Positions 2,163 to 24,462 of a stretch of 45,049 nt of DNA are shown piece by piece (positions within the stretch are counted from its first letter, which is position 1; the number at the start of each line of letters is the position of its first letter). Below the pieces are notes generated by a model. That model did not search any database and was not told the DNA's origin. It was given only the letters and a program-made list of their open reading frames with translations. Origin of the DNA: Candidatus Peregrinibacteria bacterium. GTDB lineage: Bacteria; Patescibacteriota; Gracilibacteria; UBA1369; JACRIC01. Location: positions 23,025-68,073 of the forward strand of contig JACPHH010000007.1 in NCBI GenBank assembly GCA_016188705.1, given 5' to 3'. The translations under genes and the position numbers were made by a program.

Positions 2163-3502
2163 TCCCCGTAACTATTCTCGGATCAACCGGCTCAATCGGC
2201 AGACAAACACTTGAAATACTTGAAAATAACAAACATTTTGAAGTGTATGGGTTAAGCTGTTACGCGAACACGCAACTTTTGGAAAAGCAAATACAAAAAT
2301 TTCATCCGAAAGTCGTGGCGGTTGGAGATGAAAAAATATCAGTTCGTTTTAAAAAAAAACTCAAAAATTCTTCAATAAAAGTGCTTTCAGGAATCAAAGG
2401 CATAACTGAATTAGCCGCTTACGCTGGGACTAAAAAGATAGTCATTGGAATGAGCGGAGAAGAAGCGCTTCATCCGCTTTTAGCCGCAATTAGGACAAAA
2501 AATGACATTATACTTGCCAATAAAGAAGTCGTGGTATGCCATGGAGCGAAGATACGGAAAGAAGTGTCAAAAACAGGCGCAAGGATTATTCCGGCTGATT
2601 CTGAGCTCTGCGCTATTTTTCAATGTCTGGAATATCGTTTGGAGCATCATTTGAAATATGAATTAAATCATCATCTGGAATATGGCGAGCAATATAATCT
2701 GAAACATGGGCTGGAACATGGTCAGGAATTTTATTTAAAACATCGGTGGAATAAAAAAAATGGAAAAGCTGATGAAAAATCAACATCGATAAAAAAATTG
2801 GACAACGAGCGGCGCGGCAATGTAGTAAGAATTACGGACGGACTTTTGGAGCAAGTGGAAGAGGCGATTCGGCAAGACTCTTTTTTCGGTGATTTGAGAA
2901 AAAATGGAAAATGTAAACAAGAAGGAATATGCATGTTTGATGCGTCGAGCATAGAACGAGTGGTTTTAACATGCTCAGGCGGACCATTTTTTAAAAAAAA
3001 ACGCAACGAACTTGAGCATGTCACTCTTGAAGAAGCGCTGAAACATCCCGTTTGGAGCATGGGAAAGAAAATTTCCATCGATTCGGCGACACTGGTGAAT
3101 AAAGGTCTCGAGGTGATCGAAACGCATTATCTTTTTGGCCTTCCCTACGAGTCAATTCAGGTTGTGATTCATCCGGAAAGCATCGTTCATGCGCTGGTGT
3201 ATTTTCATGATGGAGAAGTTCTTGCGGTAATCCATCAACCGGACATGAAAATACCTTTGGAGTACGCGCTTCTTTTTGGAGAAAATATCGAACCAAGGTA
3301 TCAAAAGAAAAAAAATATTCAGAATGGACCGCTCCATTTTTATTTTGTCGATCACGAGACTTTTCCGGCTCTAAAAAGTTCGTATGAAGCTGGAAATAAA
3401 GGACAGACAGAGGAAAAAAGGTATTATTTAGCCAATAAAAAACGACTCGAATATTTTTGCCGCGGCGAAATACATTTTAGAAAGCTTTTGAAGCGCCTTT
3501 AA
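2159..3502 (+). CDS. dxr: 1-deoxy-D-xylulose 5-phosphate reductoisomerase with a large internal insertion
   Basis: This is the second step of the MEP isoprenoid pathway: DXP to MEP with NADPH. Visible motifs are the NADPH loop GSTGSIGRQT (8-17), LANKEVVV (119-126), the metal-binding DSE (147-149), SGGPF (273-277), WSMGKKISIDSATLVNKG (299-316) and HPESIVHALV. The protein is odd in two ways. Residues about 156-265, between the DSE region and the SGGPF strand, hold roughly 80-100 extra residues, including a His/Leu/Glu-rich degenerate repeat at 157-195. The C-terminus stops at residue 447, soon after the region matching the family's NAANE/GEIxF segment, so the usual terminal helical domain of about 50 residues is missing. 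The catalytic residues seen are intact, so function is plausible but not certain. Confidence 0.88.
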   Translation: MIPVTILGSTGSIGRQTLEILENNKHFEVYGLSCYANTQLLEKQIQKFHPKVVAVGDEKISVRFKKKLKNSSIKVLSGIKGITELAAYAGTKKIVIGMSGEEALHPLLAAIRTKNDIILANKEVVVCHGAKIRKEVSKTGARIIPADSELCAIFQCLEYRLEHHLKYELNHHLEYGEQYNLKHGLEHGQEFYLKHRWNKKNGKADEKSTSIKKLDNERRGNVVRITDGLLEQVEEAIRQDSFFGDLRKNGKCKQEGICMFDASSIERVVLTCSGGPFFKKKRNELEHVTLEEALKHPVWSMGKKISIDSATLVNKGLEVIETHYLFGLPYESIQVVIHPESIVHALVYFHDGEVLAVIHQPDMKIPLEYALLFGENIEPRYQKKKNIQNGPLHFYFVDHETFPALKSSYEAGNKGQTEEKRYYLANKKRLEYFCRGEIHFRKLLKRL

Positions 3503-3507
3503 AAAAC

Positions 3508-3536
3508 TTGACTTTCATGGTATTTTTGCCTACTAT
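3508..3536 (+). promoter_or_regulatory. Candidate sigma-70-type promoter for infC-rpmI-rplT
   Basis: TTGACT at 3508-3513 and TACTAT at 3531-3536 are separated by 17 bp. They lie immediately after the dxr stop and about 30 bp before the proposed infC start. The -35 box matches at 5/6 and the -10 box at 4/6. Confidence 0.5.
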
Positions 3537-3566
3537 TTCCTTTGTCTTATCTTTAAACGTCACTGT

Positions 3567-4088
3567 ATTACGAAACGACTCCGAATTAATGCACAAATAC
3601 ATGCGCCGTTCATACGGCTCATTGACGAGAATCAGGAACAGCTCGGAGTGGTGCCTGTGGCCGAAGCTCTGAAATTGGCGCAGGAACGAGGATATGATCT
3701 TGCGGAAGTGGCTCCTAACGTTACGCCTCCTGTATGCAAATTGCTCGATTATGGCAAATATCAGTACAGGCAGAGCAAGATTGAACAGAAGCATCGTTCT
3801 AAACAGCATAAAGCGGAAATTAAAGGCATACGACTATCGCTTCGAACAGGAGAACACGATCTTCAAGTCAAGATAAATCACGCGGAGCGGTTTATCAAGG
3901 ATGGACATACCGTGAAAGTTGCGCTTATTTTCAGGGGACGGGAGCTGGCGCATCGAGATTTAGCCCGTGAAAAAATGTTCAAATTTTACGAAGCGCTCAA
4001 AGATAAAGTAAAGGTTGAAGAAGAGCCAAAGGTACAAGGACACAATATGTTCATGATCCTCCATCCCATCGCAGGAGGAAAACCATAA
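3567..4088 (+). CDS. infC: Translation initiation factor IF-3, probably with an AUU start
   Basis: IF-3 binds the 30S subunit and checks start codon and initiator tRNA. The full conserved N-domain is readable in frame upstream of any ATG/GTG: TKRLRINAQIHAPFIRLIDE, then GVVPVAEALKLAQERGYDL and PPVCKLLDYGKY. The C-domain shows EIKGIRLSLRTGEHDL and FRGRELAH. No ATG, GTG or TTG occurs in frame between 3498 and the RINAQI core. The ATT at 3567 gives an N-terminus of the same length as short IF-3 proteins (x-TKRLRINAQI versus MSKDFIINEQI). AUU starts are well known for infC and let IF-3 repress its own synthesis. A GTG start at 3648 would remove about half of the N-domain. The gene heads a classic infC-rpmI-rplT operon. 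Confidence 0.9.
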   Translation: MTKRLRINAQIHAPFIRLIDENQEQLGVVPVAEALKLAQERGYDLAEVAPNVTPPVCKLLDYGKYQYRQSKIEQKHRSKQHKAEIKGIRLSLRTGEHDLQVKINHAERFIKDGHTVKVALIFRGRELAHRDLAREKMFKFYEALKDKVKVEEEPKVQGHNMFMILHPIAGGKP

Positions 4089-4105
4089 AAGTAATAAAGA
4101 ATATC

Positions 4106-4294
4106 ATGCAAAAAACGCACAGCGGCACAAAAAAACGGGTTATTGTAAAAAAGAAGAAAATTTTTATGCAGAAATCGAGTAAAAACCATCTCCTTCGAAA
4201 TAAATCCAAACGTCAAAAAAATTCCTATAATAAAGGAATGCCGCTCGATAGTACCAATGTGAGTCGTATTAGAAAATTGCTTCCTAACTTATAA
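4106..4294 (+). CDS. rpmI: 50S ribosomal protein bL35
   Basis: A 62-residue, strongly basic protein beginning MQKTHSGTKKRV. It has the bL35 signature KTHSG-x-KKR, a central K-S-x-NHLLRNKSKRQKN segment, and a C-terminal V-x-R-I-RKLLPNL matching the family ending (VKRMLPYL). Length is normal. It lies 17 bp after infC and 3 bp before rplT, the conserved gene order. Confidence 0.95.
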   Translation: MQKTHSGTKKRVIVKKKKIFMQKSSKNHLLRNKSKRQKNSYNKGMPLDSTNVSRIRKLLPNL

Positions 4295-4297
4295 ATT

Positions 4298-4651
4298 ATG
4301 TCTCGCGTTAAAAGAGGAGTTACCGTAAGAAGACGTCATAAAAAAATGCTAGCTCTTGCCAAAGGCTATCGCGGCGGTCGCAGCAAAGTTTTTACGCTGG
4401 CCAAAAATGCCGTGATGAAAGCAGGCACGAACGCGTATCGCGATCGAAGACGAAAAAAAAGAGAATTTCGACGACTCTGGATTGTTCGTCTCAATGCCGC
4501 GGTTAAATTGGAAGGTTTAAATTACAGCAGGTTTATATATGGTCTTTCAAAGGCGGATGTACAGATTGATCGCAAAGTGCTTGCGGATTTGGCAGTGAAT
4601 AATGAAAAAGAATTCAAACAAATCGTCGAACTGGCAAAAAAAGCATTATAA
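4298..4651 (+). CDS. rplT: 50S ribosomal protein bL20
   Basis: A 117-residue basic protein with the canonical bL20 features: [27 protein letters not shown], the [17 protein letters not shown]-x-R block, and SRFIYGL followed by [10 protein letters not shown]. Length is exactly typical. bL20 is an early assembly protein binding 23S rRNA; in several bacteria it also represses its operon through the mRNA leader. It is the last gene of the infC operon. The 187 bp to the convergent SLH gene contain T-rich runs near 4785-4805 but no clear hairpin terminator. Confidence 0.97.
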
Positions 4652-4838: not shown

Positions 4839-7676
4839 CTAAGGAGTTAGCCTTTTAATTATTGTAAGGTTGCTTCCTTCGAGAGTTTGAGGAACAATAT
4901 CATATCCGTTTTCCACGATATTACCCTGGAATAAACGGGCTTGGATTTGCTCGCCAACGAGAGATTCGTCATAAGCAACATCAACAATAAGAAGGACGCG
5001 TTTTACAGATCCTTTTTTGAGAAACCAGGAACCCGAGAGAGCAAAGTTTTGGAGCTTATCATCTCCGTTCATGACAAGTTCGATTGGCCCCAAGAGAATA
5101 TTTTCCCATGTTTCAACGTCAACGAGACGAATATTGCTAAAATTTGTCGTTTTTTTGGCTTCATTAATGAGTCCGCCGGATTTGCCAAGAGAGGAAAGTG
5201 TAAAGTAAAGTTTTTTAACGGTAACGTCCGAATTCGCGGAAATTTGAAGATCGAGCAGAGGAACTTTAGTCGCGCCGTAACCCGCGTCATCGTCGGTATC
5301 GCCATATTCTTTTATCAGAGCTGAAGCATTATTGGTTGTAAGAGTGAGCGGATTGCCTGTAATACGGGTCGACGGATGAATGTCGGTAATATATGTCCCA
5401 TTTTCACGATTAACAATAGCTGTTTTACTAAGAGCTTGGAGAGTAACCGTAACATAACCAGGAGGATCAATAAAAGAAAAGATGGAGTTGTCGGCAATGT
5501 CCATCACAAAGGAGAAATGACGAATTTCCCCTGAATCGACTTTAAAACCATTTTTAAAAGTAAGACTCTGCGCAGTATCGCTTCCTGCGGGATTGAGCTC
5601 TTGTGGTCCCATAATCGTGGATATGCCTCCGTTTGCGCCTGGATAAAATTCAACAATTCGTATATTACTAAAATTCGGTGATAGAAATGACCCCTTGGAG
5701 TCTGAATTGAGTAAGCCTGCTTCATAACCGGAAACACTGATGTTTATTGTAAAAGTGAGTTCTTTTACTTCAATATTTTTTTCAGGGTTTATGGAAAAAT
5801 CAAAAAAACGTACATTTTGAACGCCTATTGGAACATTTGAAGCGCTTGGCCCTTCAAAAGAAATATTTACTTGAGAATCAGGATTTTGCGGACCACGTGG
5901 AAAGTCTCCTTCTCCCTGAATCACCACGGAATGACTGCCATTATTATCGTTATTATAGCCATCGGCATTGACGTTCACTCCAAAACCGTAAGTTTGACCC
6001 GTGGCATAGAGATCGTTTTCATCGGCAAGATAGACGTTAATGCTGTCTCCTGTTTTTGCCATGCGATGTATGTCCGCGAACACCGTAAAAAAGGGGTTGC
6101 TTCCTTGCTCGATTCGTAAGCCAAAAGGAATACTAAAGCGAACAAGGCCATAGGGCTTGGAAACAAGCGCGGCATGAGCAATCGGCGTCCCTGAAAAATC
6201 ATTGCCGGCATAGAGTCTGAAATTTGATAATCCGCGAAGAGGGTCAATGGTTCCTCCAATATGCAAAGCAATTTGATGAACAAAAACATTTTCAAAAGAC
6301 GGAGAAAGTTGAAATTCTGCAATTTTAGCATGGTTTGAGCCTGCGTAAACATTTGAAATCGTTCCATGCGCGGTAATATTTAAACTGCCTACGGTATCAG
6401 AGCCGATAGTATAGACCGGTCCATTGATGGCTCCGCGAGGCAAAATCAAATTGGTTTTGTCTTGGGTGGTAATCATGTCAGATCCGCCGAACATAAAATT
6501 CGATGCGTTTCCTGTTTTCGCAAGAGCGCTTATGGAGGCTTTTAACCGAAGAGTCGTAGTTTCTCCTGGAGCAAGAGGAATAAAAAGATTATCAAAACGC
6601 ACCATATGATTGGTTGGATTGCGAGTGGAACCAAAACTCGCGCGATGAGAGTCTCTAAAAAGGTAAAGTACTGAAAAATCGTCATCGCTTCCCTCACCGC
6701 TTCGATAAAATGATAAACTCGTAATAATGACATTTTTTTCTAAAGCGGTCAGATCAAATGTAAAAACCTCCGCGAATGCTCCTTTTGGCAGAGTAGTAAT
6801 TTGTGGAGTGGCGGGGTTTGGTCGTATAACAAGCTGTCTTTCCAAAGAATCAGAACGAAGAGGTCTTTTTAAAGAACCTGCCTTCAAGAAATGCTCTACG
6901 GATTGGCCTTCTGCGTTACGATCATCTTTTGGAACGTTTTTGGGTGTAATTATCGGTTTTGGAGGAAAAGTCTCATATTGAACTCCTGGAAAACTGTCGA
7001 TTTTTTCTTCACGAACTTTTATAAAACGATAAAGATTTTCCGCGATATTTGCGCGCTCCATGCCTTCAGCGGGATGAAAGGCGCTTCCGGTTTCTTCAAG
7101 AAGTCCTTTTTGTTTGGCAAAATGAACATATTTGGCATACCAAGCGGTTTCATCAATATCTTCATAGAGCGGTTCATCGATTGCTGTTTGAAGATCATTT
7201 TCGCCGACGCCTTGAGTTTCGATGAGCATTTTAAGAGATTCAACTTTATTCACTGCGCGGGAAGGATAAAAATAACCATCAGAATAGCCTTCAACCCAAC
7301 CGGCTTCTTTCGCGTAACATACATATTTTGCAAACCATTCATCTTTTACATCGGGAAAACAGTTAAGAAAAATACCAGAATCAGGAGAAATGCCCTGCCC
7401 TTCGAGAAGAATTTTCAGCTGTTCAGCTCGATTGATGGTTTTTTCAGGCTGAAAAGTGCCGTCTTGGTAGCCTTCGATTACCTCTCTTTCTTGTAAAAAT
7501 TCAATGGCTTGAAAGTTTTTATGCTCAGTATTTACGTCTGAAAATTCCTTTTGCGCGCGAACTTGAGAAAATACGACATTAGTTGACGCAAAAAGACCGA
7601 AAATAAGAACGCTTGCGAGAAAACGTGATGCCCAAAGCGTTCGCAACCGAATTTTATAATGAGCGGTAGTAAGCAT
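4839..7676 (-). CDS. Large secreted surface protein with three SLH domains
   Basis: The protein has 945 residues. A signal peptide is visible: basic segment HYKIRLRTLWASR, then hydrophobic FLASVLIFGLFAS. Three SLH domains follow at about 42-100, 105-165 and 170-220, with GYQDGTFQPEKTINRAE and GYSDGYFYPSRAVNKVE typical of the fold that binds cell-wall polymers. After a Pro-rich linker, residues about 285-945 look like four or more repeated beta-sandwich domains, each opening with a similar strand pair (NVIITSLSFYRSG, NIEVKELTFTINIS, DVTVKKLYFTLSS). It probably forms or decorates an S-layer-like surface. It is a single gene, convergent with rplT. The first 15 or so codons and the start codon lie in an arm of a dispersed repeat (see 7634-7690). 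Confidence 0.85.
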   Translation of the reverse strand: MLTTAHYKIRLRTLWASRFLASVLIFGLFASTNVVFSQVRAQKEFSDVNTEHKNFQAIEFLQEREVIEGYQDGTFQPEKTINRAEQLKILLEGQGISPDSGIFLNCFPDVKDEWFAKYVCYAKEAGWVEGYSDGYFYPSRAVNKVESLKMLIETQGVGENDLQTAIDEPLYEDIDETAWYAKYVHFAKQKGLLEETGSAFHPAEGMERANIAENLYRFIKVREEKIDSFPGVQYETFPPKPIITPKNVPKDDRNAEGQSVEHFLKAGSLKRPLRSDSLERQLVIRPNPATPQITTLPKGAFAEVFTFDLTALEKNVIITSLSFYRSGEGSDDDFSVLYLFRDSHRASFGSTRNPTNHMVRFDNLFIPLAPGETTTLRLKASISALAKTGNASNFMFGGSDMITTQDKTNLILPRGAINGPVYTIGSDTVGSLNITAHGTISNVYAGSNHAKIAEFQLSPSFENVFVHQIALHIGGTIDPLRGLSNFRLYAGNDFSGTPIAHAALVSKPYGLVRFSIPFGLRIEQGSNPFFTVFADIHRMAKTGDSINVYLADENDLYATGQTYGFGVNVNADGYNNDNNGSHSVVIQGEGDFPRGPQNPDSQVNISFEGPSASNVPIGVQNVRFFDFSINPEKNIEVKELTFTINISVSGYEAGLLNSDSKGSFLSPNFSNIRIVEFYPGANGGISTIMGPQELNPAGSDTAQSLTFKNGFKVDSGEIRHFSFVMDIADNSIFSFIDPPGYVTVTLQALSKTAIVNRENGTYITDIHPSTRITGNPLTLTTNNASALIKEYGDTDDDAGYGATKVPLLDLQISANSDVTVKKLYFTLSSLGKSGGLINEAKKTTNFSNIRLVDVETWENILLGPIELVMNGDDKLQNFALSGSWFLKKGSVKRVLLIVDVAYDESLVGEQIQARLFQGNIVENGYDIVPQTLEGSNLTIIKRLTP

Positions 7677-14843: not shown

Positions 14844-15161
14844 TTATTGAAAAATGATAAGTATCCCAAAGGGTAATTTGATATCAGGCAAAACTCTGGA
14901 GAGAGCTTTGATACGGACATCTGCTTGCTGACTTAGATAGTCAAATAAAATAATATTTATTTTGTCGTATTTAAGAGAAAGATTTACAAAATCTTTATCA
15001 TTACTTACAACAATCCTTTTTTCTTTTACCGCCAGTTGTAATACTTCATCGTCTGACATTTCAGGATCTACATCTTTCACGAGTTTAACATCATATTTTT
15101 GTTTTTTCAAAAAATTACTAACAGATTTCGGTATATTATGATCAACTAAAAATTTAAGCAT
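14844..15161 (-). CDS. DUF5615 PIN-like toxin candidate
   Basis: The 105-residue protein begins MLKFLVDHNIPKSVSNFLKK, the DUF5615 (Mut7-C-like PIN) opening with an acidic residue after the first strand. It continues with SDDEVLQLAVKEKRIVVSNDKDF, which supplies the second acidic pair on the predicted nuclease site. Such proteins are thought to be RNase toxins of the PIN superfamily. It overlaps the upstream DUF433 gene by 8 bp, the usual pairing for this two-gene module. Activity is inferred from the family. Confidence 0.8.
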   Translation of the reverse strand: MLKFLVDHNIPKSVSNFLKKQKYDVKLVKDVDPEMSDDEVLQLAVKEKRIVVSNDKDFVNLSLKYDKINIILFDYLSQQADVRIKALSRVLPDIKLPFGILIIFQ

Positions 15162-15399
15162 AAGCTTTATGAACAGAAGAAGATTTTAGAAAACGAGTTC
15201 GCGAAATTGATTGATGCGCAAACTCCATGCACGCTTTAATATCTTCTTCTGAAATATCAAATTCTTTTATAATTTTTTTATGGGACCAACCTTCTGCCAA
15301 ACAGGCGAGTATTTGCTCAACACTCACTCTCGTACCTTTAATACGAGGTTTTCCAAGAAGAATATTATTTGAAATAATTATACGCTTATTTTTATACAT
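15154..15399 (-). CDS. DUF433 antitoxin
   Basis: The 81-residue protein has the DUF433 core IISNNILLGKPRIKGTRVSVEQILACLAEGWS, a small winged/helix-turn-helix fold. The helix pair KIIKEFDISEEDIKACMEFA follows. Proteins of this family pair with DUF5615 toxins and probably bind both toxin and operator. It is the first gene of the module; start ATG at 15399 follows an AT-rich region (TTATTATAGCATTT on the minus strand) that may hold its promoter. The family call is strong; the antitoxin role is inferred. Confidence 0.82.
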   Translation of the reverse strand: MYKNKRIIISNNILLGKPRIKGTRVSVEQILACLAEGWSHKKIIKEFDISEEDIKACMEFAHQSISRTRFLKSSSVHKAYA

Positions 15400-17734: not shown

Positions 17735-17824
17735 GGAGAGGTGGGTGAGTGGTTGAAACCGCCGCTCTCGAAAAGCGGTATCCCATTTATGGGATCGAGG
17801 GTTCGAATCCCTCCCTCTCCGCCA
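17735..17824 (+). tRNA. tRNA-Ser (anticodon CGA), CCA encoded
   Basis: Acceptor stem GGAGAGG (17735-17741) pairs with CCTCTCC (17814-17820); discriminator G at 17821, genomic CCA 17822-17824. The anticodon stem CCGCT/AGCGG has loop CTCGAAA with CGA at 17769-17771. Long variable arm ATCCCATTTATGGGAT and T-arm GGGTTCGAATCCC. It is the left neighbour of the restriction-modification island; no copy of its 3' end is seen at the far end of the island. Confidence 0.97.
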
Positions 17825-17927: not shown

Positions 17928-20000
17928 ATGAAAAATATTTTAAACATTATCAAAGATTCAAATTACAGTTTTTCGCTGTTTAATCAGTCGCTTGTTAATG
18001 AGTTAGAACAGAACATAACAATCAGAGACGGCAAGCCATATGTAGTTTGCGCTATTCGCGATAAAGAAATAATCTTGAAACCAGAGGAAGTTGTTCGTCA
18101 ATTGTATGCGATGAAATTATTGAAAGAATACGGCTATCCAAAACAAAGAATCAAGTTTGAACACTCAATCCATTTTGGCAGAGAAGTAAAGTCTGCCGAC
18201 ATCGTTATTTTTGATAAAGATCGTCCGATGGTTGAATATATCATCGTTGAAATCAAAAAGCCGAAACTCCAAGATGGGAAAAATCAGCTCCGCTCTTACA
18301 CAAACGCCACAGGCGCGCCGATTGCCGTTTGGACCAACGGAGGACAAATTTCCCATTATAACCGCAAAGATCCGAATTATTTTGAGGACATCACTGACAT
18401 TCCTAAAGTTGAACAAACGCTTGAAGATATTTTAAAAGAAAGATTTACGCTCAAAGACTTAATCATCAAAGACAAAATTCCGAACGAGGGAAAATCATTG
18501 AAAACCATTATTCAGGAAATGGAAGATGAAGTTTTGGCCAATGCTGGAGTAGATGTTTTTGAAGAAGTTTTTAAACTGATTTTTACGAAACTTTATGATG
18601 AATTACAGAGTAAAAAAGATAAAATGCGCATTGAAATTTGGTTTGAGGATACATTCCATGAAGAAGACAGGAGTAATTATGAATTAGTAAAAGGTTCTTT
18701 ATCATCTATGGATGATTCCAGTTTTCGTATTCTTGAATTTCGCAATACGGGTCAATCGGAAGGAGAACTGAAAAAGAAAATCCAAAAACTTTTTGACGAA
18801 GCTAAATCTAAATGGCCAGGTGTTTTTGATGAAGTGAGTCAAATCGGGCTTAGCCCCTCTCATCTTTCCGTCAGCGTTTCCAGTTTACAAGATATAAAAC
18901 TATTCAATTCCAATCTACAAATTGTTGATGAAGCATTTGAATATTTAATCAGCAAATCGGCCAAAGGCGAAAAAGGCCAATATTTCACGCCACGCCATGT
19001 GATTGATATGTGCGTCAAAATGCTTAATCCAAAAGCGGGCGAATATATGATAGACACCGCCGCAGGCTCTTGCGGATTTACCGTGCACACGATTTTTCAA
19101 ATTACAGGTCATCTCTTTCAAAACATGAATATTTCAGAAGAAGAAAAAGAGAATGTGCTTAAAGTTTTCGGCATTGATTTTGATGAAAAAGTCGTGCGCG
19201 TGGCTCGGACTTTAAACTTGATTGCAGGAGATGGAAACACTAATGTTTTGCACCTCAACAATCTTGATTATGACCGCTGGAATGAAACGATACAAAATCG
19301 TGATTGGCTGGCAGTGTATGGAGCAGGATTAAAACGGCTTGAAGCGTTGCAAAAAAATAAAAGTTCGTATAAGGAATTTAATTTTGATATTCTTATGGCC
19401 AACCCGCCGTTTGCCGGAGATATCAAAGAATCCCGTATCATCCACAAATACGATCTTGGCTATAACGACAAAAACAAACCAAAATCAAAAGTCGGACGTG
19501 ACATTTTGTTTATTGAAAGAAATTTAAATTTTTTGAAGCCGGGTGGAAGAATGGCGATTGTTTTACCGCAAGGCCGTTTTAACAATACATCGGATAAAAA
19601 TATTCGCGAGTATATTGCCGAAAAGGGGCGAATTTTAGCGGTCGTTGGGTTGAATGTAAATACTTTCAAACCGCATACGGGAACTAAAACGAGCGTCTTG
19701 TTTGTCCAAAAATGGAACGAAGACCCAAAACTTGGTCCACTATGTCCCAAAACAAAAGACTACCCGATTTTTTTTGCGGTTTCGGAAAAATCCGGCAAAG
19801 ACAATTCCGGCGAGTATGTATTCGTGAAAAACGGTAATGGTTCAACTTCGCTCACCACGGGCGGCCAGCCAAAGCTGGACAAAAACGGCCATTTGATAAT
19901 CAATCATGATTTGCATAACCACAACGGCGAATTACCCGACGGCGTGGCGGAAAAATTTATTGAATGGGCAAAAGGTGAGAAATTAAGTTTTTGGAAATAG
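17928..20000 (+). CDS. Restriction nuclease-N6-adenine methylase fusion (BcgI-A-like)
   Basis: The protein has 690 residues. Residues about 35-145 form an HsdR-N-like PD-(D/E)xK nuclease domain: ADIVIF (D91), then VEIKKPK (E108, K110) and Q120-L-R-S-Y124, the QxxxY motif of HsdR-type nucleases. A helical HsdM-N-like part spans about 200-340. An N6-adenine methylase follows: GQYFTPRHV (350-358), DTAAGSCGF (376-384, motif I) and NPPF (492-495, motif IV). A nuclease fused to the methylase, plus a separate specificity subunit and no translocase, is the layout of BcgI-type type IIB enzymes (cut both sides of the site); type I is less likely. Its last codons are repeated at 21192 and 22292. Confidence 0.85.
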   Translation: MKNILNIIKDSNYSFSLFNQSLVNELEQNITIRDGKPYVVCAIRDKEIILKPEEVVRQLYAMKLLKEYGYPKQRIKFEHSIHFGREVKSADIVIFDKDRPMVEYIIVEIKKPKLQDGKNQLRSYTNATGAPIAVWTNGGQISHYNRKDPNYFEDITDIPKVEQTLEDILKERFTLKDLIIKDKIPNEGKSLKTIIQEMEDEVLANAGVDVFEEVFKLIFTKLYDELQSKKDKMRIEIWFEDTFHEEDRSNYELVKGSLSSMDDSSFRILEFRNTGQSEGELKKKIQKLFDEAKSKWPGVFDEVSQIGLSPSHLSVSVSSLQDIKLFNSNLQIVDEAFEYLISKSAKGEKGQYFTPRHVIDMCVKMLNPKAGEYMIDTAAGSCGFTVHTIFQITGHLFQNMNISEEEKENVLKVFGIDFDEKVVRVARTLNLIAGDGNTNVLHLNNLDYDRWNETIQNRDWLAVYGAGLKRLEALQKNKSSYKEFNFDILMANPPFAGDIKESRIIHKYDLGYNDKNKPKSKVGRDILFIERNLNFLKPGGRMAIVLPQGRFNNTSDKNIREYIAEKGRILAVVGLNVNTFKPHTGTKTSVLFVQKWNEDPKLGPLCPKTKDYPIFFAVSEKSGKDNSGEYVFVKNGNGSTSLTTGGQPKLDKNGHLIINHDLHNHNGELPDGVAEKFIEWAKGEKLSFWK

Positions 20001-20020
20001 TTTTTTAATAATTTAATAAT

Positions 20021-21103
20021 ATGACAAATAGCTACACTCCAAAAAATTTACCAATCCAAAATCTTAAATGGGAATCATTTGTTCATTTTATTGGCAAAGC
20101 AAACGCGGGCATCGCTCGGTTTGATGGTTTATTGCAGACAATCCCTAATCCGTCCGTGCTTTTGAGTCCGTTGACCACCAATGAGGCGGTTTTGTCCTCT
20201 CGTATTGAAGGAACGCAGGCAACCTTGAAAGAAGTTTTAGAATTTGAAGCAAACCCGAAAAAGGAAACAAAAAAATATGAGGATATTCAGGAAGTTATTA
20301 ATTACCGAAGAGCGTTAAAAGAAACGATAGATGAGATGGAAAAATATTCGCTTTCCATACGAGTTATTAAAAAAGCTCATGAGATTTTGTTACAAGGAGT
20401 AAGAGGTGAAAATAAAGATCGTGGAAATTTTAGGCGACAGCAAGTATTTATTGGTAAACCCGGCGCAATTATTGAGCAAGCAACTTATATTCCACCATCG
20501 GCCGATAAAATAAACGATTTGGCATCTAATCTGGAAAAATATATCCACAGCGAAGACAAAGATTTACTCGTTCAATTAGCCATTATTCACGCGCAATTTG
20601 AAATGATTCACCCCTTTATGGATGGCAATGGTAGAGTCGGTAGAATGATAATGCCATTATTTTTGTATTTCAAAAAAGCCATTTCCTACCCGTCATTTTA
20701 TTTAAGTGAGTATTTAGAATCTCACCGAGACGAGTATTACAAAGCGTTATTGGATATTTCCAAAAATGATAATTGGGATGGTTGGATAACCTTTTTCTTG
20801 CAAGCTATTATTGAACAGTCAAAAGTAAATATCGTCAAAGCCAAAAAAATTATTACTCTTTATGAACACAAAAAACAAAGAATAACCGAACTTACCAAAT
20901 CACAATTTGGTATTAAAATTCTTGACGCGCTTTTTGTAATGCCGATTTTTCAAAGCCAAGATTTTATTAAAATTTCCAAAATACCGAAAGCAAGTGCATT
21001 TAGATATATTGGAATACTTGAGAAAAATGGCGTTTTGTCTTCAAACAGAAAGAGGAAAAATAAGCTTTATTTTTTCAATAAATTATTAGATATAGTTAAA
21101 TAG
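20021..21103 (+). CDS. Fic-domain protein with inhibitory helix (class II) and C-terminal winged helix
   Basis: Fic proteins usually transfer AMP from ATP to target proteins. The 360-residue protein has an N-terminal Fic_N region with SSRIEG (59-64), fitting the self-inhibitory (S/T)xxxE(G/N) helix. The Fic core has the complete active-site loop HPFMDGNGRVGR (197-208). Residues about 300-350 look like a winged helix (QDFIKISKIPKASAFRYIGIL). Members of this class often self-regulate, and some bind their own promoter. It starts 20 bp after the methylase gene. Two palindromes that could be operators follow its stop (21112-21178). Confidence 0.9.
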   Translation: MTNSYTPKNLPIQNLKWESFVHFIGKANAGIARFDGLLQTIPNPSVLLSPLTTNEAVLSSRIEGTQATLKEVLEFEANPKKETKKYEDIQEVINYRRALKETIDEMEKYSLSIRVIKKAHEILLQGVRGENKDRGNFRRQQVFIGKPGAIIEQATYIPPSADKINDLASNLEKYIHSEDKDLLVQLAIIHAQFEMIHPFMDGNGRVGRMIMPLFLYFKKAISYPSFYLSEYLESHRDEYYKALLDISKNDNWDGWITFFLQAIIEQSKVNIVKAKKIITLYEHKKQRITELTKSQFGIKILDALFVMPIFQSQDFIKISKIPKASAFRYIGILEKNGVLSSNRKRKNKLYFFNKLLDIVK

Positions 21104-21111
21104 TGCCAGCC

Positions 21112-21178
21112 GTGAGACTATATAAATTTATAGTCTCACAAAAGATAATATATGAGACTATTGGGAATAATAGTATCA
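21112..21178. promoter_or_regulatory. Two related palindromes after the fic gene
   Basis: GTGAGACTATA/TATAGTCTCAC (21112-21139) is a perfect 11-bp inverted repeat with a 6-nt centre. TGAGACTATT/AATAGTATCA (21153-21178) is a related 10-bp inverted repeat with one mismatch. Both share TGAGACTAT. They may be operator sites for a winged-helix protein, or an RNA hairpin; the T-tract of an intrinsic terminator is absent. Confidence 0.45.
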
Positions 21179-21191
21179 CCGATGAGATTAA

Positions 21192-21238
21192 GCCACGACG
21201 GCGAATTGCCAGACGGCGTGGCGGAAAAATTTATTGAA
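21192..21238 (+). pseudogene. Repeated 3' end of the methylase gene (copy 2)
   Basis: CACGACGGCGAATTGCCAGA, then CGGCGTGGCGGAAAAATTTATTGAA, reproduces the end of the nuclease-methylase gene (19920-19964) with few changes. It encodes GELPDGVAEKFIE in an otherwise non-coding stretch. It breaks off at the GAA of FIE. Confidence 0.85.
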
Positions 21239-21269
21239 AGATTTTATTTTCATTGGTCAAAAATAACTC

Positions 21270-21308
21270 ATGCAATATTTCATTATAAATTATGAAGAAA
21301 GAGAATAA
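21270..21308 (+). pseudogene. Remnant of a specificity-subunit gene start
   Basis: ATG at 21270 opens a 12-codon frame, MQYFIINYEERE. It matches the start of the intact specificity gene at 23035 (MQYSVVNYK) at protein level and in DNA (ATGCAATAT, AAATTAT). It directly follows a copy of the methylase tail, as expected for an old methylase-specificity junction. The RhuM-Fic gene starts inside it at 21292. Confidence 0.65.
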
Positions 21309-22290
21309 ACAAATTGCGATTTATCAGGCATCAAACGGAGCAGTGGAGGTGCGTCTTGATGTGAATCAGGAAACGATTTTTTTGCCTCAGCAACAGGTAG
21401 GCGATCTTTTTAATGTGCAAAAAGCGGCTATTTCCAAACACGCTAAAAATATTTTTGACATCGGTGAATTGGACAAGAAGTCAACTGTTTCCATTTTGGA
21501 AACAGTTCAAACCGAAGGAAAAAGAAAAATCGTCAGAAAAATTGAATACTATAATCTTGATTTGATTCTCTCTATCGGCTATAGAGTAAATTCGGCAAAT
21601 GCCACCAAATTCCGACAGTGGGCGACAAAAACTCTGCGTCAACATATTATGGCGGGCTATACCATAAACGAAAAACAGCTTCTGGAAGCTAAAAACAAAT
21701 TCCACGAACTTGCCGAAGCGGTTTTATTTTTGCAAAAGCAATCCAAAAAAGAACTTCTGCGAGGGCAAGAAACGGAAATTTTAAACCTGCTCGCGGATTA
21801 TTCCAAAACACTTTCGTTGCTTGAACAATACGACAAAGGTAAGCTGGAAGAAGAAAAGGGAAAGAAAACAAAGTTTGTTTTACGGTACGATGATTGCGTA
21901 AAAATTATTGCTGAACTTAAAAAAGAACTGATAGCCAAAAAAGAAGCGAGCGATTTGTTCGGACAAGAACGAGATGGAAGTTTTGAGGGAATTATCAAGG
22001 GGTTGTATCAAACATTTGGAAAGAAAGAACTTTACCAGACCATTGAGGACAAGGCGTCGCATATACTCTATTTGATAATCAAAGACCATCCGTTTTCCGA
22101 TGGAAACAAGCGTTCGGCCGCGTTTTTGTTTGTGTATTTTTTGGACAAATCCGATTATCTTTTCAAGAAATCCGGCGAACGGAAAATCAATGACAATGCT
22201 TTGACCGCGCTGGCTTTGCTTATCGCCGAGAGCGACCCGAAGGATAAGGAAGTAATGATAAAAATTATAAAAAATTTACTCGAGGAATAA
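21292..22290 (+). CDS. RhuM-Fic/Doc fusion protein
   Basis: The protein has 332 residues. Residues about 1-125 form a RhuM (virulence protein) domain: IAIYQASNGAVEVRLDVNQE, LPQQQVGDLFNVQKAAISKH, and YYNLDLILSIGYRVNSANATKFRQWA. A helical linker follows, then a Fic/Doc domain with HPFSDGNKRSAAF (266-278); the Lys in GNKR is as in Doc-type proteins. RhuM proteins, including fusions with Fic/Doc, are frequent between type I restriction genes, but their role is not settled; a toxin or regulatory function is likely. The start lies within a remnant of a specificity gene, and the stop is directly followed by another methylase-tail copy. Confidence 0.85.
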   Translation: MKKENKQIAIYQASNGAVEVRLDVNQETIFLPQQQVGDLFNVQKAAISKHAKNIFDIGELDKKSTVSILETVQTEGKRKIVRKIEYYNLDLILSIGYRVNSANATKFRQWATKTLRQHIMAGYTINEKQLLEAKNKFHELAEAVLFLQKQSKKELLRGQETEILNLLADYSKTLSLLEQYDKGKLEEEKGKKTKFVLRYDDCVKIIAELKKELIAKKEASDLFGQERDGSFEGIIKGLYQTFGKKELYQTIEDKASHILYLIIKDHPFSDGNKRSAAFLFVYFLDKSDYLFKKSGERKINDNALTALALLIAESDPKDKEVMIKIIKNLLEE

Positions 22291-22291
22291 T

Positions 22292-22345
22292 ATGAAAGCG
22301 AAAAAATTTATTAAATGGGCAAAAGGCGAGAAATTAAGTTTTTGA
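22292..22345 (+). pseudogene. Repeated 3' end of the methylase gene (copy 3)
   Basis: A 17-codon frame MKAKKFIKWAKGEKLSF then TGA starts 1 bp after the RhuM-Fic stop. The methylase ends VAEKFIEWAKGEKLSFWK. The DNA is nearly identical over AAATTTATT, then ATGGGCAAAAGG, then GAGAAATTAAGTTTTTG. It could be translated as a tiny peptide, but it is best read as a duplicated gene end. Confidence 0.8.
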
Positions 22346-22366
22346 AAATAAGTAATATACCATATT

Positions 22367-23053
22367 ATGGATGAAGAACAAAAATGGCAGAATGAACAAT
22401 ATATATTCTTTAAGCAAGAATGGATTTCCAAATGGAGTGATTTATTTCCTCAAAAAGATGATTTAAAGGAAGAAATTTTAAAATTACAATATGATAATTT
22501 TTACTGTGTTAATAATGCATTTGGCAAATTAGATAAAGCACTCTCAATATGTGATTTTTTATATCAACTGACAAAATCGAAACCGCCTCAAGATACAGAA
22601 AAAATAATAATCACTACTCTTGTTTCCTGCGCCGAGGCTGTTTACAGAATCAATAAGCCTGATGAATTAGTGAATGAAAATTTAGTAAAAGGATTTTTCA
22701 ACCCCGTTAAAGAACAACTTAATTATAAAATTCGTGGACATGTTGGTGAAATGCTGTATCAAAAAGTATTTGAACCGGCAGAAATTCTGTATTTGGTAAG
22801 AAACGACTACATTCATAATGGTAATTTTACAGGAAGATTTTTCAGGAGACCGACATCAAAAACTTATTTTTATAATTCAGGTTGTTTTTATTTTTCAACA
22901 AAAGAAAGCAAAACCAATTTCATTTTGGCAAATTCTGAATGTTCCTTAACTTATAAAGATTTTTTAAATATATTTTTAGAGGCATTTATTAAAAATATAG
23001 AAAAATATTTAGCTAAAAAAGCTAAAACCTCACCATGCAATATTCAGTTGTAA
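22367..23053 (+). CDS. HEPN-like protein in the restriction-modification island
   Basis: The 228-residue, mostly helical protein has no full-length family I recognise. R145-NDYI-H150 within LVRNDYIHNG fits the HEPN RNase motif R-x4-6-H, placed at a helix as expected. The preceding helices (FGKLDKALSICDFLYQLTK; TLVSCAEAVYRI) suit a HEPN helical bundle. HEPN domains occur in defence RNases and in the anticodon nucleases RloC and PrrC, which sit beside restriction systems. Nuclease activity here is an inference from one motif. The 3' end overlaps the specificity gene by 19 bp, so the two are probably co-translated. Confidence 0.6.
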   Translation: MDEEQKWQNEQYIFFKQEWISKWSDLFPQKDDLKEEILKLQYDNFYCVNNAFGKLDKALSICDFLYQLTKSKPPQDTEKIIITTLVSCAEAVYRINKPDELVNENLVKGFFNPVKEQLNYKIRGHVGEMLYQKVFEPAEILYLVRNDYIHNGNFTGRFFRRPTSKTYFYNSGCFYFSTKESKTNFILANSECSLTYKDFLNIFLEAFIKNIEKYLAKKAKTSPCNIQL

Positions 23054-24462
23054 ATTATAAAACAGTAAAAGAAGATCCTATTTTTAGGCTTGATGCTGAT
23101 TTTTATCGTGTTGACTATTTAAATTATCTACAGCAAGTTTATAAACATGAAGAATATTTTCTCAAAAAAATATTACATCCTACTGAAATAATAAGAGTTT
23201 ATGAAGAAAGGGGAATACAGATATTATTAGCCCAAAATGTAAGAAATAATGAGTTAGATTTCTCAAATGTTGTTTTTATGAGTGAATCGGCAAAAGAAAA
23301 TTTAAAAAGAAATAAATTACAATATGATGATGTTATTTTAACTCGTTCTGGTGCAAATTTTGGTCAATCCGCCTCTTATAAGGTGGATGATGAAATTTAT
23401 GCTTGTGCCGATGTTTTGGTTATTAAAAACTCAAAAGAAATAAAGGGTGGCTATCTTTCAACATTTCTAAATACCAAGCAGGGCAGAGCATTACTTGACA
23501 GAGGCTCTTATGGGATGGCACAACCTCATATAGCGCCTTCTTATCTTTATAATTTACCAATTTCTAGATTTGATACCAATTTTGAAAATAAAATTGACAC
23601 TTTGGTTAATGAATCGGGAAAATACAAGTCCAATTCTTCATGCCTCTACTCTCAAGCCGAACAATTACTCCTTTCCGAACTTGAGCTTTTGGATTGGAAG
23701 CCAAAGCATGAACTTGCTTTTGTAAAAAACTTTTCCGACACCAAACAATCAGATCGTTTTGACGCGGAGTATTTTCAGCCGAAATATGAGGAAATAATTT
23801 CTGCGGTGAAAAAATACAAAGGCGGGTTTGATATTTTAGAAAACTTATCAAAACTTGTGGGGCACCCCTCAAATCCACCATACGAAACAGAGAATACGGA
23901 AAATAAGACATTTATAATTACTCAAAAACATCTCGCAAGTTATTTTCCAGTAGATAATTTCTGGAAAGATGAAGAAGCTCTTTTCACAACCGACGAATTT
24001 ATTGAAAAAAATAAAAAATTTATTCTTCAGGAAAATGATCTTATTCTTTATTCAGTTGGTGCATATATTGGAAAAACAAATCTTTACAATGCTGATATAA
24101 AAGCAACAATTGGTAGTTTCTTAACTCTTATCCGTCCAAAGATTGACAAAATAAATCCGTTTTATTTATTGGTTTTTCTCAATTCAAAAATCGGACAAGA
24201 ACTTACTCGCAGGAATTCAAGAGGATTGGCCCAACAATACATTTATCCTTACGATACAAAACAGGTGATCATTCCAATTTTAGAAATTAACAAACAAAAA
24301 GAAATTGAAAAAATAATTTCAGGTGGTCAAAAGTCGCATAATTTATCCAAATCCCTGCTTGAAATCGCCAAGCGCGGCGTGGAAATGGCGATAGAAAAAG
24401 ACGAACAGGAAGGAGAAAAATGGATTAAAAATAATTTAAAAGAATTGGAAAAAAAAATATAA
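23035..24462 (+). CDS. Restriction-modification specificity subunit (HsdS-like)
   Basis: The 475-residue protein has two target-recognition modules. Module 1 has IQILLAQNVRNNE-, DDVILTRSGANFGQSA- and GGYLSTFLNTKQGRALLDRGS-type segments. Module 2 starts after about residue 230: FIITQKHLASYF, ENDLILYSVGAYIGKTN, YLLVFLNSKIGQELTRRNS and RGLAQQYIYPYDTKQVIIPIL. Each is followed by a helical spacer (KIDTLVNESGKY; EIEKIISGGQKSHNLSKSLLEIA). Two modules imply a bipartite DNA site. It pairs with the nuclease-methylase at 17928, separated from it by two Fic-type genes and the HEPN-like gene. Confidence 0.88.
   Translation: MQYSVVNYKTVKEDPIFRLDADFYRVDYLNYLQQVYKHEEYFLKKILHPTEIIRVYEERGIQILLAQNVRNNELDFSNVVFMSESAKENLKRNKLQYDDVILTRSGANFGQSASYKVDDEIYACADVLVIKNSKEIKGGYLSTFLNTKQGRALLDRGSYGMAQPHIAPSYLYNLPISRFDTNFENKIDTLVNESGKYKSNSSCLYSQAEQLLLSELELLDWKPKHELAFVKNFSDTKQSDRFDAEYFQPKYEEIISAVKKYKGGFDILENLSKLVGHPSNPPYETENTENKTFIITQKHLASYFPVDNFWKDEEALFTTDEFIEKNKKFILQENDLILYSVGAYIGKTNLYNADIKATIGSFLTLIRPKIDKINPFYLLVFLNSKIGQELTRRNSRGLAQQYIYPYDTKQVIIPILEINKQKEIEKIISGGQKSHNLSKSLLEIAKRGVEMAIEKDEQEGEKWIKNNLKELEKKI

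Follow-up and report, generated by a model that had tools for sequence, protein, structure and literature searches.

Repeated methylase-gene ends point to stepwise addition of defence genes to a restriction–modification locus

Restriction–modification (R-M) loci that pair a fused nuclease–methylase gene (M) with a specificity gene (S) seem to gain their extra genes singly and to keep a readable record of this growth. We analysed 45,049 nt of DNA from a Candidatus Peregrinibacteria bacterium (contig JACPHH010000007.1, positions 23,025–68,073, forward strand; hereafter the window), in which three cargo genes lie between M and S and part of the M 3' end is found again ahead of the second and third. 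The original prediction held that cargo genes had been added one by one, each event leaving an M-tail scar, and relatives with empty, one-cargo and multi-cargo M-S intervals strongly support this.

An R-M locus with three cargo genes

The M gene of the window (17928–20000, plus strand) encodes a fused nuclease (HSDR_N_2; PF13588, residues 52–159) and N6 adenine methylase (PF02384, residues 332–599), as seen with both Pfam and PADLOC. The PADLOC model MTase_I matches it at 946 bits, and PADLOC files M under type I methyltransferases; the best solved relative is RM.BsaXI. No helicase domain was matched in M by Pfam, and a domain search of the locus (17928–24462) yielded no separate HsdR gene. 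The specificity subunit is encoded by S (23035–24462, plus strand; PADLOC Specificity_I, 1.6e-33). Nuclease and methylase in one protein together with a separate specificity subunit, an arrangement known here from sequence, is that of type IIB (BcgI/BsaXI-like) R-M.

The gene order is M, SoFic-like Fic, RhuM-Fic, 228-aa gene, S. Cargo 1, fic (20021–21103, plus strand), encodes a SoFic-like Fic protein (Pfam Fic_N and Fic; PADLOC SoFic, 3e-115) with the motifs HPFMDGNGR and SSRIEG. Cargo 2 (21292–22290, plus strand) is a RhuM-Fic fusion (Pfam Virulence_RhuM and Fic; PADLOC PDC-S23, 7e-121) carrying HPFSDGNKR. By the PADLOC PDC models, then, a candidate defence gene lies inside the R-M operon of the window. 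Only two cargo genes had been counted originally; the third, encoding a 228-aa protein (22367–23053, plus strand), was overlooked. It falls into no Pfam or PADLOC family, and its 3' end overlaps the start of S by 19 nt. The string RNDYIH in this protein fits the RxxxxH signature of HEPN RNases, and we consider it a candidate HEPN RNase. The one relative found (L145 in genome G174; 35% identity) adjoins genes that, judged by sequence, resemble type III R-M.

Ends of M recur ahead of cargo genes 2 and 3

The intact 3' end of M (19919–20000, plus strand), which lies directly upstream of fic, served as the reference copy. Tail copy 2 (21193–21238, plus strand) is identical to 19919–19964 at 43/46 positions (93%; HMM E = 1.8e-4), and tail copy 3 (22298–22350, plus strand) matches 19947–19999 at 49/53 positions (92%; HMM E = 6.6e-4). 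Alignment scores for the two copies were 40 and 45, whereas none of 1000 dinucleotide-preserving shuffles scored above 20, and the M tail sequence occurs at three places only across the whole 1.37-Mb genome. The two copies cover different halves of the M tail, with 18 nt in common: the first half survives in copy 2 (SHDGELPDGVAEKFIE), the second in copy 3 (AKKFIKWAKGEKLSF, followed by TGA where M has TGG). Homology of the M end with both downstream intervals is therefore well above the shuffled level, and the objection that the copies might be unrelated fails. The claim of recurrence holds for both copies at the level of alignment, but the 17-residue string GVAEKFIEWAKGEKLSF never recurs whole. 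Nor is the tail best described as repeated after each cargo gene, as had been proposed; it is more accurate to say that an M end precedes each one. Chance similarity is ruled out by the shuffles, the genome search and a profile scan (described below), and an assembly artefact is unlikely, as the pattern is seen in eight independent assemblies.

Behind copy 2 lies what had been read as a fragment of the S-gene start (MQYFIINYE; 21270–21296, plus strand), with the RhuM-Fic gene beginning inside it. The fragment is 82% identical over 28 nt to 23034–23061, a weak pairwise match (score 20, versus a shuffle maximum of 22). An S-start profile built from 36 other loci, however, scores 21270–21296 at 15.2; once true and likely S starts are set aside, no more than about 2 positions in 2.5 million score that high, and for this reason we accept it as the remnant of an S start. 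RhuM-Fic does begin within it (ATG at 21292). The spacer between copy 2 and this remnant showed no significant similarity to a decayed M tail. S-start remnants were seen only in the window and, arguably, in locus L067, where ACTATGCAA, the usual S start, sits between cargo and tail.

Tail copies in related loci

Scanning species genomes, we obtained 80 loci from Patescibacteria, Nitrospirae, Elusimicrobia, Deltaproteobacteria, Poribacteria and other phyla; besides these, we considered G344 and G328 (M 89% identical, same order). Extending the census through other classes added little. Viral contigs yielded eight M genes and plasmids four records, with no further tail copies among the viral loci. 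M directly abuts S in about 40 loci, the commonest gap being 3 nt, while one cargo gene is present in about 32 and two or three in five, one of which (L050) ends at a contig end inside its second cargo gene. Cargo includes RhuM, RhuM-Fic, Bro-N, YhcG/DUF1016 nuclease, NYN, AriA-like ATPase, DUF6119, pAgo-like and PD-T7-4 genes. Many of the cargo proteins tested match PADLOC models of defence or candidate defence genes (PDC-S23, PDC-S05, PDC-S13, PDC-S02, SoFic, PD-T7-4), and several match none.

To locate tails, we ran a profile of the M C-terminus (last 60 residues) in six frames over about 80 loci. With two exceptions, the top matches other than each locus's own M were plus-strand tail copies in the M-S interval, which makes up 1.8% of the searched sequence; the exceptions are L096, which has a second full M, and L048, where a tail lies ahead of a RhuM-Fic gene upstream of M. 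Tails lie between successive cargo genes in all five multi-cargo loci (the window, with two copies, and L039, L050, L056 and L067), compared to 2 of 32 single-cargo loci (L070 and L072), where the tail stands directly before S (Fisher P = 4.8e-5). From this contrast comes the rule that an M end stands ahead of each added gene. None of the loci with M directly next to S has a tail copy between the two in the profile scan. In all, seven related loci from several phyla bear scars. Random M fragments are ruled out as a source, since only the M C-terminus recurs in the intervals; the sole other M match there, in L088, is weak (29% identity).

The comparison of M-S intervals called for at the outset thus turned up empty sites (L048 and L053 among them), one-cargo loci without a scar and multi-cargo loci with scars. 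Locus L038, in G344, has a RhuM-Fic gene (82.5% identical to that of the window) as its sole cargo; the gene directly adjoins both M and S, and no scar accompanies it. This is the one-cargo form expected under stepwise growth.

Three further arrangements were observed in these loci. In L048, the stretch 3358–4419 upstream of the empty M-S holds a foreign M tail that is truncated and, behind it, a RhuM-Fic gene broken into two reading frames. In L049 (1259–1720), a Fic-domain gene lies upstream of M and is followed by the S-start-like AACCATGCAATATTCA, as if the cargo gene had moved together with the beginning of S. L096 (5927–11085) contains two M-like genes in tandem, the first of which (945 aa) apparently has a specificity-like C-terminal region fused on.

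How the locus may have grown

The joints vary. Depending on the locus, copies begin some 10 to 45 codons short of the M stop, yet nearly all extend to that stop, and the next start codon follows 2–22 nt on, usually 2–4 nt as at M-S. In L072 the joint lies inside the 3' end of the cargo gene, with the tail supplying the cargo stop codon, and the homologue in L061 ends differently. The differing copy starts and the comparison of L072 with L061 thus reveal a variable, non-homologous right-hand joint of the insert. It had been suggested that growth occurred by crossover between methylase/specificity junctions. This is right only in part. At the joints, the 3' end of a cargo gene runs into the M tail at differing points. 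Because these joints are variable and mostly lack an S fragment, homology-anchored illegitimate joining fits better than crossover at M/S junctions.

We consider it probable that cargo goes in behind M, with homology in M as the anchor and the old M tail as the place where the right-hand side is joined illegitimately. The M-S junction would then be where single defence genes enter time and again. An incoming fragment consisting of an M 3' end and a cargo gene would pair with the resident M, which would remain intact; the non-homologous right end of the insert would be joined illegitimately within the old M tail, at a site that varies from case to case, and that tail and all behind it would be pushed downstream. 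Repeated events would give the order M, newest cargo, tail, older cargo, tail, oldest cargo, S. In the window, the 228-aa gene would have entered first, RhuM-Fic next and fic last, with the youngest gene nearest M.

Sequence markers in the tails bear on where they came from. The Lys codon AAA is found in both window copies and in the window M, compared to AAG in seven other M genes matched by motif search, and because this private codon is shared, the window copies probably come from the resident M lineage. Over its first 59 nt, the L067 copy has the GTA and AAC codons of the M in its own locus and differs from that M at 2 sites, versus 5 for L049; in the last 31 nt, it differs at 11 sites from its own M end versus 3 from that of L049. 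The simplest reading is that L067 kept its resident tail, now displaced, and that its M end as it stands today came in along with the cargo. The L048 copy, and possibly the L070 copy, resembles other M alleles more than the M of its own locus, indicating that tails are imported too. Sliding identity of whole M genes was highly mosaic and showed no clean donor breakpoint beyond the last codons.

An identical gene order would arise if a donor segment (M tail, cargo and S), truncated in the M tail, had replaced the resident S region; here the illegitimate joint would lie behind the resident cargo, and the homologous crossover would have taken place within S or past it. In a variant of this, a deletion joins two tandem R-M loci. 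Such replacement could be favoured by selection for a new S specificity, and it would account for the truncated foreign tail before RhuM-Fic outside M-S in L048 and for ACTATGCAA ahead of the tail in L067, a locus also readable as two parental loci fused. Gene order alone fits insertion and two-locus fusion equally. The markers favour insertion: in the window copies, and in the L067 copy over its 5' half, the markers are shared with the resident M only, and the foreign-looking part in L067 is its own M end. We regard S-side replacement as unlikely on these grounds. Still, the foreign tail before cargo in L048, together with the possible fusion in L067, means that the illegitimate joint may be on either side. 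Scars are also missing from most single-cargo loci, from which it follows that other, clean insertion routes exist and are commoner.

A site-specific cassette system resembling an integron, with the M tail as attachment site, would explain why many unrelated cargo genes are found at one site behind a fixed anchor. Like integron cassette arrays, M-S loci would show serial capture behind a fixed point, with the newest gene first. Pfam searches, however, found no recombinase among the genes of the locus; the locus has no integrase and no fixed joint, given the spread of copy starts, and single-cargo loci lack a site on the right. We deem a system of this kind highly implausible.

The data show the copies and their positions, their association with multi-cargo loci, the empty and one-cargo relatives, the resident markers and the foreign-looking M end of L067. 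How recombination proceeded, in which order events took place and the coupling considered below are inferences, and the ordering argument was made after seeing the data. Neither cargo 1 nor cargo 3 has a relative directly behind an M in the set, and hence the order of entry is one that we infer.

A possible translational role for the tails

Each window copy lies in a short ORF. That with copy 2 (21182–21295, plus strand) has a stop codon overlapping the RhuM-Fic start as ATGA (21292–21295). That with copy 3 (22292–22345, plus strand; MKAKKFIKWAKGEKLSF, then a stop) begins two bases past the RhuM-Fic stop and has GAGGA just before it. Of the nine copies, seven (7/9) sit in a short ORF that has an in-frame ATG of its own, where the same DNA gives a null of 0.176 (P = 1.4e-4, by a test chosen post hoc; the L039 ATG was counted at 7251, inside the profile-aligned stretch). 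In L067 and L072, the start of the tail ORF overlaps the preceding stop. Differences from the nearest M tail number 21 synonymous to 13 non-synonymous, far above expectation without constraint, although such an excess is also expected if the copies derive from other functional alleles.

These features suggest that the scars may also act as translational-coupling relays, those tails that keep translation running being the ones retained. As the next gene starts only a few bases past the M stop, a tail that is still translatable could preserve coupling to the downstream gene, and this would account for the retention of tails. The original account of the tails as a scar record is sound but missed this potential role. 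A tentative possibility is that tails are kept as translated relays coupling the captured genes and S to M, making the operon an expression platform that takes in defence genes at a single point and still maintains S expression. This would predict why kilobases of cargo can separate M and S without loss of S. Coupling is not universal or required, as the L050 copy is frameshifted and the L070 copy lacks an ATG.

A stronger version would have M tails copied mainly as ribosome-loading or coupling elements, that is, as regulatory parts rather than scars. The in-frame ATGs, the ATGA overlap, the GAGGA before 22292, the short distance from tail stop to next start (like that at M-S) and the synonymous excess are all in line with it. 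However, most single-cargo loci have no tail before S, the 5' ends of the copies are ragged, as joints would give, and an origin from functional alleles predicts the synonymous excess equally. We find this version improbable.

Relation to known systems

Homology-facilitated illegitimate recombination has been proposed for T6SS effector-immunity arrays of Vibrio cholerae (Kirchberger et al. 2017, PMC5361080) and, as cited there, for C-terminal displacement at Rhs loci (Jackson et al. 2009, via PMC5361080). As in those arrays, M-S loci would have an upstream anchor, an illegitimate, non-homologous end, displaced old 3' material and the newest unit first. Unlike in those arrays, the M anchor stays whole, the displaced piece is the last 10–45 codons of M, and each insert is a single defence gene, unrelated to the others, between M and S. 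The embedding of defence genes in R-M loci and in other defence loci has been described by Payne et al. 2024 (10.1101/2024.01.29.577857), as cited in PMC12988326 and PMC12137116. Like the embedded candidates in those accounts, M-S cargo matches PDC families; the citing papers describe embedding but neither M-tail scars nor an insertion order. In the literature covered, with subscription papers and preprints outside that coverage, we found no report of methylase-tail scars or of such a growth order. The displacement array is thus known as a kind, and its occurrence in a defence locus with methylase-tail scars is the new part. The stepwise arrival of defence genes in islands and other systems is seldom visible; here, scars give a probable order and mark the joints. 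The tail scar also provides a sequence signature for finding captured genes, including those without a family such as the 228-aa ORF.

Genes upstream of the locus

A tRNA-Ser (CGA) gene lies at 17735–17824, 103 nt upstream of M, and M has a tRNA gene a short way upstream in L067 (tRNA-Pro) and in L050 (tRNA-Thr) as well, a hint that R-M modules of this kind settle behind tRNA genes. Most scar loci have no upstream tRNA at M. Site-specific insertion linked to tRNA genes is ruled out for the cargo by this, by the absence of a recombinase among the genes of the locus and by the lack of a fixed core. About 2.5 kb upstream of the R-M locus, on the minus strand, a DUF433/DUF5615 (PIN-like) pair at 14844–15399 is likely a toxin–antitoxin module.
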